This document shows positions 10,802 through 13,154 of a DNA stretch of 13,154 nucleotides, piece by piece. Origin of the DNA: Acanthamoeba lenticulata (Eukaryota > Discosea > Longamoebia > Acanthamoebidae). The first letter of the stretch is position 1. Each line of letters opens with the position of its first letter. The stretch is taken from the NCBI GenBank assembly GCA_002179805.1, contig NAVB01001944.1, positions 1 to 13,154 on the forward strand. Reading direction: 5' to 3'. The notes below the pieces were generated by a model that was not told where the DNA came from, did not search any database, and saw only the letters and a program-made list of their open reading frames with translations. The position numbers and the translations under genes were made by a program.

Positions 10802-13154
10802 CTAGAAACCACTTGAGCCGTTGAGAAGGGGCGCGAGCGGCGGGTAGTCCAGCCACACGTCGGTGAGAGCCTCAGGCCGAAAGGTCCTCCCTGGCGGGTG
10901 ATTCACGCTGGACAGGCGGAAGTAGACGGCGTAGCGGATGTTGCTCGACACGTTGGGCGCCACCTGCACAAGAGATTCTCGCTCACTTAATCAATGGTTC
11001 AGACACAAGGAAGTGGCTGGCAGCAGCAGCGTACGGTGTGGGGCATCGAGTAGTGGACCAGCACAATGTCACCGGCCTTGCCTCGGATCTGCTGCGGCGG
11101 AGCCAGCGCGAGGCCCTCTCGTGGAAGGCCTTGGTCCCTGTTGTTGATGCCGACGAAATCAGCTCCAAGAGTGACGGTGTCCACCTGGACCAACGTCCCA
11201 GCGTACCCCTCATTGAGGACCGCCTGCGTGCCGGCCGAGCGAAAGTGGGTTTGCATGGCCAGGTGCCCGCCGGGGAACACCGTCAGGTTGCCGCTCATCT
11301 CCTCTACAACAGCCACCACAGGCGACGCAACAAGCATAACACGTGATAAGCACGGCCCGTGCGTGTGAGCGATCGATAGTTGAGGATAAGCGCACTGCAA
11401 GCGACGAACCAGGCACGTCGCACAGCAGGACGCCCAGGAGGAGCGTGAAGTTGTGGACTTGCCCGCGCGGCACGCCGCTGAAAGGCGAATGCAGGCCTAT
11501 CCCATACGAGCCCACGCACATGATCGCGAGATCAGCGCTTAGCAAGCTCGAGCTTATGGAGCCTCGAAGCGGGACTGCGCACCGTCGATGTGCCAGGCAT
11601 GAGACCAGTTCTCGGGATACACAAAGGACGTCCCCGACCAGGGCAGGCCGCTGGCTGCCGCCGGCATGCAGCTGAACCCCGGAAACCGCAGCGCGAGCTG
11701 CCCGCCAAACGCCGGGTGGGTCTTGCCCACAATGCTCTGCACCAGCGGCAACGCAGCCGTCTTGTAGAGCAGGTCTGTTGTGTGGACCAGATTCACGTCA
11801 GCTGATTGCGGGGAAGGAGGCCAAAACAGCACACCGTGACCGCACCGGTGATTTGCCAACCGGTCTCCACGTGCGGGCGGCGGAAGGTGAGCAGCTCTCC
11901 CGGTTGGAAGCCCTTCCCCAACTCGTAGCTGTTGTCTGGCGTCAATTGGGCAATGAACATGAAGGTGAACGTGAGGAAGGAAGCACGCACTTGATGAGCT
12001 TGAGCGCCTCCTGCAGCATCTCAGGCGGGACGATGCCTGGCAACTGGACGTGCATGATGAACGAGGAAGAGAAGAAGGACATGAGACCAAAGAACAAGAG
12101 ATCAAAAGGATACGGCACGGTGGATTCCCGGGTGGTCGCCCACCCCAGTACTAACACCGCCTGGCGCAGCTTAACTTCGCTGTTCGGATGGGAAGCGGTG
12201 CTTTCTGCGCAGTATGGCCGTATCCGGCACTAGGTCAAGAGGGGGCCCACACCCACACGTACATGAACGTAGCCGTTGGTGATGAAGCTGCGCTTCTGGT
12301 TGTCGGTCAACCGGCAGTGGGCAAAGCGTGGGTCGGGCTCGAACAGCTGCTCCTTCTCGCGCTCGATGCTTCGCCTGATCTCCTTTTGAAGCTGTTGTGA
12401 CCAGCTCAGCTGAGGTGAGACGCAAGAGGGACGAACCTGATCGGTACCTAAAAGCCTGAGCCACATACCTCCTCGACCTTGGCCTGGATTTCCTTGGCGG
12501 CCTTGGCCTGCTCCGCCTGGAAGTCGGACACCGCCTGGGCCAAGCGCGACCCGATGGACTGTTGCAGCGCGAGGCCTTCTTGGATTTGTCGTTGCACCAA
12601 CGCTGCACCACACCGGCACAACACACCGATGGTCATCGCATTTGGCTTCCTTCTTGATGAGGGCACAATGCACAAACCTTGTTGGGCTGCCATGGCCTCT
12701 CTGGTCTTTGCGGCCACACGCTCCATAATCACGCCCATACCCAGAGTGAAGGCTGGACTTGCCGCCACACAACATAACACAACACACAGCAGCATCCATT
12801 GTCAGTGCTTCTGCTCCGGCAACGCTGGACGTCCAGGGCAGACCTTGGCTGCGTAGGCTCTGCTCAAGGGCGGCCTTCTCTTGCTCGACCTTCTGCCTGA
12901 ACTCATCACTTTCGCGCTGGTGTCTGTTGTGTTTGTTTCTCAGAATATTGTAATGTTTGTGAGGTTCTGAAAGAATGGGGCTGGTGTGGTGGGCGGACCT
13001 GAGCTTCATCTCGTCAGCATCTTTCTGGATCTGGGCTCGCATGGCAGCCTGGCGCTGCTTCGCCTTCTCCTCCCACTGGATAGAGGGGGAGACCAGACAG
13101 TTGGAGGTAGTGGCAAGCAGACTTGTTGGGGGGGGGGGTGTACATTGGCTTGGA
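10802..13154 (-). CDS. Coiled-coil protein with C-terminal PhyH-like Fe(II)/2-oxoglutarate dioxygenase domain (N-terminus outside window)
   Basis: Exons in coding order: 13154-13144 (partial), 13075-12999, 12923-12844, 12752-12678, 12602-12469, 12409-12263, 12043-11991, 11928-11846, 11801-11576, 11477-11410, 11303-11035, 10963-10802; 460 visible residues with consistent phases. The first about 150 residues are Glu/Lys/Arg/Gln-rich and helical (WEEKAKQRQAAM, RQKVEQEKAALEQ, AKAAKEIQAKVEE), a likely coiled coil. The rest matches phytanoyl-CoA-dioxygenase-like proteins: opening FITNGYVHLPGIVPPEM, iron-binding HID in SHAWHIDGAH (codons 11592-11584), NFTLLLGVLLCDVP, GNLTVFPGGH, then HYSMPHTVAPN with the distal His and NIRYAVYFR with the likely 2-oxoglutarate Arg. 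Role: oxidative hydroxylation of an unknown substrate. Weaker points are the 44-nt intron 11845-11802 and the choice of acceptor at 11929. No AATAAA is visible downstream. Confidence 0.85.
12104..12107 (-). terminator. RNA polymerase III terminator of the 5S rRNA gene
   Basis: Four T residues on the minus strand directly follow the helix I 3' strand; the first is probably the last base of the mature RNA. T4 is the minimal Pol III stop signal. Confidence 0.8.
12107..12225 (-). rRNA. 5S rRNA: 5S ribosomal RNA gene, full length, nested in an intron
   Basis: The minus strand from 12225 to 12107 is 119 nt. Its ends pair perfectly over 8 bp (GGATACGG with CCGTATCC, helix I). It contains the universally conserved loop CCCATCCGAAC, the GAAGTTAAGC segment, and AGTACTGGGGTGGGCGACC near the 3' part, in correct order and spacing for eukaryotic 5S RNA. 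A TTTT run follows at once. From memory it agrees with the published Acanthamoeba castellanii 5S RNA. It is transcribed by RNA polymerase III and the product joins the large ribosomal subunit with ribosomal protein L5. It lies in the same orientation as its host, the PhyH-like gene. The intact stem, promoter and terminator argue that this is a working gene rather than a relic. Confidence 0.97.
12129..12175 (-). promoter_or_regulatory. Internal control region of the 5S rRNA gene (A box to C box)
   Basis: Corresponds to 5S positions about +51 to +97. The A-box-like GTTAAGCTGCG starts at +51 and the C-box region around AGTACTGGGGTGGGCGACC at about +74 to +92. By family knowledge these are bound by TFIIIA and then TFIIIC. 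All expected blocks appear intact. Confidence 0.8.
13128..13138. repeat. G11 homopolymer (C11 on the transcribed strand) just after a donor site
   Basis: Eleven C residues on the minus strand start at position +6 of intron 13143-13076 of the PhyH-like gene. The arrangement mirrors the C10 run in the neighbouring prohibitin-like gene. Confidence 0.85.

Follow-up and report, generated by a model that had tools for sequence, protein, structure and literature searches.

A complete 5S rRNA gene nested in sense orientation in a predicted intron of a PhyH-domain gene of Acanthamoeba lenticulata

A complete 5S rRNA gene lies in sense orientation within a well-supported predicted intron of a PhyH-domain protein gene of Acanthamoeba lenticulata, an unusual arrangement that emerged from sequence analysis of the 13,154-nt contig NAVB01001944.1 (the whole stretch analysed, here called the window, or C1222 where contigs are compared). 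The explanation we favour, with a probability of about three in four, is that a dispersed 5S copy is nested in a normally spliced intron of the PhyH gene, is looped out and tolerated there, and is kept similar to other copies by exchange.

The host intron and its 5S gene

The locus comprises the following features (window coordinates).

10802..13154, minus strand: host gene with N-terminal part and PhyH domain, its 5' end outside the window (prediction, Pfam, homologues)
12263..12409, minus strand: upstream exon of the host gene, ending ...FITNGYVH (gene finder and homologue alignment)
12044..12262, minus strand: predicted host intron, 219 nt (37 nt, 5S gene, 63 nt), GT at 12262-12261 and AG at 12045-12044
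12226..12262, minus strand: donor-to-5S segment, 37 nt, ending TGCC (C246 and C857 have an equally long segment in their 5S introns)
12107..12225, minus strand: 5S rRNA gene body, 119 nt (Rfam and comparison with other copies)
12104..12107, minus strand: T4 run at the 3' end of the 5S gene (seen in the sequence)
12044..12103, minus strand: pyrimidine-rich tail from the 5S gene to the acceptor (a CT-rich tail is the norm among 5S copies read)
11991..12043, minus strand: downstream exon of the host gene, beginning LPGIVPPEML (gene finder and homologue alignment)

The 5S body matched Rfam RF00001 over model positions 1-120 with 113.8 bits (gathering score 38, E 5.3e-25), the sole Rfam match at the gathering threshold within the window and the top value among 47 copies scored. 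It differs from the commonest copy type by one change, T to C at position 111, by which pair 8-111 of helix I becomes G-C instead of G-U and the helix is strengthened; the identical body was found in two more copies (C62 and C822). In the computed fold of the whole intron the 5S fold was intact and helix I was closed, with nine pairs at probabilities of 0.98-1.0, as the initial annotation had described it, and the T4 run it reported is present at 12104-12107. Such a run after 5S resembles a Pol III terminator, its putative function. The minimum-energy fold is also predicted to pair the donor region (12250-12262) with the acceptor region (12044-12056). No target-site duplication was seen by eye around the window 5S gene.

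Introns were predicted with a purpose-written two-strand gene finder trained on 157 kb of the same genome, the window included. The gene finder returned exons 12263-12409 and 11991-12043 and intron 12044-12262 exactly as first annotated, and after in silico excision of the 5S gene the posterior was 1.00 for an intron, 0.92 for precisely these ends and 0.00 for intergenic sequence. Ranked among predicted plus-strand introns, the donor score stood at percentile 83 and that of the acceptor at percentile 30. The host intron had been described as longer than the 34 others in the window, and among 35 predicted introns this held (219 nt, all others shorter), with a corrected range of 54-122 nt for the others in place of 44-120 nt. 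If the intron were retained, the reading frame would stop after VRVGVGPLLT, adding ten residues.

The N-terminal part of the host protein, which by eye is coiled-coil-like in composition, gave no Pfam domain when scanned in pieces, a result that would fit two separate genes with the 5S gene in intergenic DNA, the case named in advance as fatal to the nesting. However, the PhyH domain (PF05721, 27.7 bits, cut-off 22) starts at residue 3 of the spliced protein that was scanned while the joint follows residue 8, so that the domain spans the splice joint, and two long homologues, the 496-aa P0001 (labelled jgi and lgn at source) and the 480-aa P0002 (transcriptome set MMETSP0413, another organism, read as Filamoeba), each hold the N-terminal and PhyH parts in a single chain and align without gaps over the YVH|LPG joint. 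Because of these one-chain homologues, the gapless joint and the intergenic posterior of 0.00, we rejected two separate genes, to which only the slightest chance is left.

The same gene, intron and 5S copy are found on a second contig, C1010, at ~97% identity; assembly error is therefore unlikely, and an assembly artefact was rejected as the source of the nesting. The 14 best matches to the host gene all fell on C1222 and C1010, with no third copy or empty-site paralogue among them. Rfam, the gene finder, the PhyH match, the homologues and C1010 all agree with the central claim of the initial annotation, a complete sense 5S gene in the 219-nt intron of a PhyH-like gene. Between the two contigs, differences number 3/119 in the 5S body, 9/100 in the rest of the host intron, 20/710 in other introns and 10/400 at third codon positions. 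Two of the three body differences lie on one base pair, G8-C111 in the window and A8-U111 in C1010, both paired, and the third is in a loop; these pair-preserving changes hint at structural constraint on the 5S sequence, a reading made post hoc on few sites. For the LRR host gene, C100 and its second haplotype C1825 differ at 0/119 body sites, 6/183 host intron sites and 22/827 sites of other introns, so that for both haplotype pairs pooled 3/238 body sites differ versus 42/1537 across the remaining introns of both host genes. Selection on the 5S body was not convincing from these pairs, the window-pair rate of 3/119 being close to the 20/710 of other introns. DNA searches for second haplotypes over the intron at C246, C1175, C191, C486 and C62 gave one for C486 only (C857), and the C1175 query found C1176 with its 3' part only. 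Second haplotypes are at hand for C1222 (C1010), C100 (C1825) and C486 (C857).

Intronic copies among the dispersed 5S genes

A 5S core pattern with at most two mismatches gave 150 matches in the 48.5 Mb genome, in keeping with the dispersal of 5S genes stated at the outset. We read 93 loci plus C889, C857 and C714, with ~55 of the 5S copies outside this sample; after removal of six loci (>6 sites off the main type) and merging of seven near-duplicates the 93 became 80 distinct loci, or 81 with C889. The initial annotation had called for a survey of intronic copies, and by curator judgement 8 of the 81 distinct full-length loci are intronic, six of them in hosts with domain support (PhyH, LRR, GH15, Cupin_8, purple acid phosphatase-like and TPMT):

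C1222, this window: PhyH host, domain over the joint
C100 (second haplotype C1825): LRR host, domain over the joint
C1175: TREH_N-GH15 host, TREH_N reaching over the joint and GH15 on the other side
C486 (second haplotype C857): Cupin_8 host, domain over the joint
C889 (L039): TPMT host, domain over the joint
C62 (L001): purple acid phosphatase N-domain, match over the joint below the Pfam cut-off, hand-added exon
C246: Metallopep (peptidase) domain downstream, intron from the gene finder
C191: no clear domain, intron from the gene finder

C62 lies below the short-intron threshold and was accepted on the domain and the hand-added exon. The two major body types account for 3/11 intronic copies (second haplotypes counted) compared with 64/84 of the others, truncated copies included (p = 0.002). 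CT-rich or pyrimidine-rich tails downstream are general to the 5S copies read.

The genomic settings of the copies vary. Where the intergenic posterior reached at least 0.5 (67 loci), the 5S gene lies between convergent predicted genes in 22 cases and between divergent ones in 7; at the remaining loci the neighbours are on the same strand, or a gene was seen on a single side or on neither. Two inverted 5S copies stand ~65 nt apart at L026:1500-1800, one with a rearranged 3' end, and a tRNA-Lys(ctt) gene lies on the opposite strand ~100 nt 3' of the 5S gene at 2 of the 22 loci scanned (L004:1720-1794 and L030:1719-1793). Fragments of 5S sequence occur beside complete copies at C246, where the 3' end is repeated downstream (L034:1632-1647), and at C1660 (L075), where positions 13-34 recur upstream; these are perhaps traces of exchange or insertion.

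All eight accepted intronic loci carry the 5S gene in sense orientation (p = 0.008, two-sided), a small count of loci chosen partly by judgement and not blind; if the three introns with a 37-nt donor spacing (see below) share an origin, the count becomes 6/6 (p = 0.03). Without filtering, a short-intron posterior of at least 0.5 was reached by 11 sense entries, second haplotypes included, versus one antisense entry (L012). Introns in non-host loci were predicted 120 times in sense and 108 times in antisense orientation relative to the 5S gene, so the gene finder has no strong strand bias. Long intron predictions were balanced (summed posteriors 7.2 and 7.5) and were read mostly as false fusions of neighbouring genes. 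The sense entries left out by judgement were L005, L011, L017, L020, L035, L079, L095 and L101, of which L011, L017 and L020 are above the short-intron threshold; they were set aside because a gene, actin or another, continued into its neighbour or because no domain covered the joint, with Pfam scans for L017 and L035. On the antisense side, an intron posterior of at least 0.5 at any length was found at L006, L010, L012, L022, L040, L069, L104, L106 and L110. L006, L040 and L069, where Pfam domains differ on the two sides, and L010, L022 and L110, with a Pfam domain on one side only, were read as fused neighbours. L106 gave no Pfam match. The sense-only count excludes the antisense candidates L012, L104 and L106, which were neither accepted nor dismissed. 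An antisense copy would put a purine-rich stretch at the 3' splice site and make RNA complementary to 5S; these two effects may explain the absence of confirmed antisense copies.

The upstream signature and related introns

An upstream signature (RYTGAY at -6..-1, G at -16, G at -22 and A at -27), which may be part of the promoter, is common to the 73 distinct copies outside the accepted intronic set. The median signature score was 9.0 for these copies and -9.5 for 38-mers of the window. The window copy scored -7.9, below all 73 and a value that 40% of window 38-mers equal or exceed, so that it is not of the type usual in this genome, and its own Pol III transcription is consequently less certain than initially assumed. 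Scores were low also at C1010, C100, C1825, C191 and C246 and intermediate at C857, whereas four of the eight intronic loci (C62, C1175, C486 and C889) have a normal signature. The intronic class compared with the others gave a one-sided p of 0.095, or 0.024 with C857 replacing C486. A class-wide difference obtained earlier (p = 0.005) was abandoned, since it fell to the one-sided 0.095 after C889 was added and C486 used.

The 5S gene starts exactly 37 nt after the donor in three host genes, those for the PhyH protein (C1222 and C1010), the peptidase (C246) and the Cupin_8 protein (C857). The C246 and C857/C486 introns open with the 15-mer GTACGCGTTCTSGTC, which occurs at three places in 48.5 Mb, each at the donor of a 5S intron; the reversed control pattern had one match. 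TGCC followed by the 5S start was likewise found at three places, C1222, C1010 and C246, all intronic 5S copies. C246 and C857 have 22 of the 37 nt in common, when the mean for intron pairs is 12.0 (sd 2.9) and 88 of 61776 pairs, allelic pairs included, reach 22 agreements. C246 agrees with C1222 at 15 positions, which is not clearly above chance, and with C1010 at 17; what ties the window intron to the rest is accordingly the spacing and the leader. The 37 nt upstream of C714 match the C486 segment at 30/37 positions; the 381 bases read there gave no clear genomic context, and the C714 5S has an altered core word. The tails of the related introns differ, and among the 5S introns compared the likeness is limited to the donor-side segment.

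It therefore seems from these comparisons that a donor-to-5S segment was moved or exchanged between introns of unrelated genes. This bears on the initial suggestion that an ordinary intron had received a 5S copy by insertion. The nesting stands, and the insertion is doubtful: three introns share the 37-nt spacing, and pairs of them have sequence in common that is rare in the genome, so the 5' segment of the intron may have travelled or been exchanged with the 5S gene. The two haplotypes of the Cupin_8 gene offer a further comparison. The C857 intron is compact (190 nt: 37 + 119 + 34; posterior 0.99), while in C486 the same donor is followed by the first 15 nt of 5S, a tRNA-Cys gene without its 5' end, flank of the tRNA-Cys..5S type and a full 5S gene. 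The simplest reading would be that a dispersed tRNA-5S unit recombined ectopically into a 5S gene already resident in the intron. The C486 intron corresponds to L112:300-668; at C21 (L052:1299-1573) an intact tRNA-Cys(gca) gene stands ~80 nt before the 5S gene. Long flanks are common to pairs among a number of other copies.

Explanations, known systems and meaning

According to the favoured explanation, the spliceosome would remove the 5S gene together with the intron. The 5S would fold on itself on the closed helix I and loop out, leaving an effective intron of ~100 nt and possibly accounting for its tolerance, and the CT-rich tail typical of 5S copies would serve as the pyrimidine tract of the 3' splice site. 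Copies would be spread and refreshed by exchange with other copies, donor-to-5S segments of unrelated genes included, and exchange rather than function would keep the 5S body intact. Any Pol III transcription of the window copy would rest mainly on the internal promoter. Nested in the same way, the gene might instead be a dead passenger that Pol III does not transcribe; the signature score of the window copy below all 73 others and the shortage of major body types among intronic copies point in this direction, while the complete body, its top Rfam score and a single change that strengthens helix I argue against it. We regard a dead copy as a plausible but rather doubtful case, which overlaps with the favoured explanation, so that the odds of the two do not add up. 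A 5S unit might also bring splice signals along, with the donor 37 nt upstream and a CT-rich tail with an acceptor downstream; it would enter genes by insertion or copying, be removed as an intron and spread in that form, some 5S then maybe coming from the host transcript in place of Pol III. This we consider unlikely. Introners are mobile introns and, as here, share sequence from the donor onwards between introns of unrelated genes. They differ in that few such introns were found here, alike in their 5' part only and with differing tails: a donor-side segment is shared, in place of near-identical whole introns at many unrelated sites.

Two further readings would give the intronic position a function. 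5S RNA might be trimmed from the spliced, debranched lariat in the manner of intronic snoRNAs, supplied by Pol II and requiring sense orientation. The sense placement at all eight loci, set against 120:108 in non-host loci, the low signature at the window copy, C1010, C100, C1825 and C191, a helix I stable in the intron and a pair 8-111 kept in both haplotypes as G-C and A-U are in its favour; the good signatures at C62, C1175, C486 and C889, a class that does not differ from the others (p = 0.095 or 0.024) and some 150 copies that make the route unnecessary are not. We hold this route to be very unlikely, and lowered its odds slightly because C889 has a good signature. Alternatively, the 5S fold in the pre-mRNA could bind L5 or TFIIIA and control splicing, by analogy with the plant 5S mimic, an exon of the TFIIIA gene whose splicing is controlled by L5 binding (PMC5568362). 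A 5S-like fold in a Pol II transcript, intact in the computed intron fold, and a predicted early stop upon retention are common ground with that system. In the plant case, however, the mimic is exonic, whereas here a complete 5S gene is intronic, its hosts are unlinked to TFIIIA and exonisation was not seen; a TFIIIA host with an exonic 5S-like part, as in P5SM, is replaced here by a PhyH host and an intronic 5S gene. The plant parallel drawn in the initial annotation differs in these respects. With host domains that have no evident link to 5S metabolism and a C1010 body that differs at 3/119 sites, such regulation appears highly improbable.

The favoured nesting of a dispersed copy has partial counterparts elsewhere. 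Dispersed 5S genes are also known from Neurospora and Acanthamoeba, and as in such genomes single 5S genes are scattered genome-wide here; the window copy differs by its place in a predicted spliceosomal intron and by lacking the upstream signature of most of its relatives. Pol III genes nested in introns are known, for example tRNA genes in nematode introns, which likewise are small Pol III genes within protein genes; here the gene is 5S and, among accepted loci, in sense orientation only. Mammalian introns carry 5S pseudogenes, similar in being 5S-derived sequence within introns and different from the full-length, near-identical copies with CT-rich tails and a T run found here, and from the window copy with no target-site duplication seen by eye. 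snoRNAs are encoded in sense in short introns of host genes, a placement matched here, but 5S is as a rule transcribed by Pol III in its own right, and processing of 5S from an intron is hypothetical here. As in the tRNA-5S genes of Yarrowia, some copies here are near tRNA genes. Dispersed 5S copies number 116 in Yarrowia and 30 in Blastobotrys (PMC4022394). Among the papers listed by searches of open-licence literature on 5S introns, 5S dispersal and Acanthamoeba, none described a 5S gene within an intron of an amoeba.

If spliced as predicted, these introns would represent a natural case of a Pol III gene residing in Pol II introns, in several genes of the same genome and always in sense among the accepted loci, and introns of the window type could show how a single stretch of DNA serves Pol II, Pol III and the spliceosome. 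The intronic set lets one ask whether 5S can come from introns, and bears on how dispersed copies move and stay alike, with second haplotypes for three host genes providing natural comparisons.
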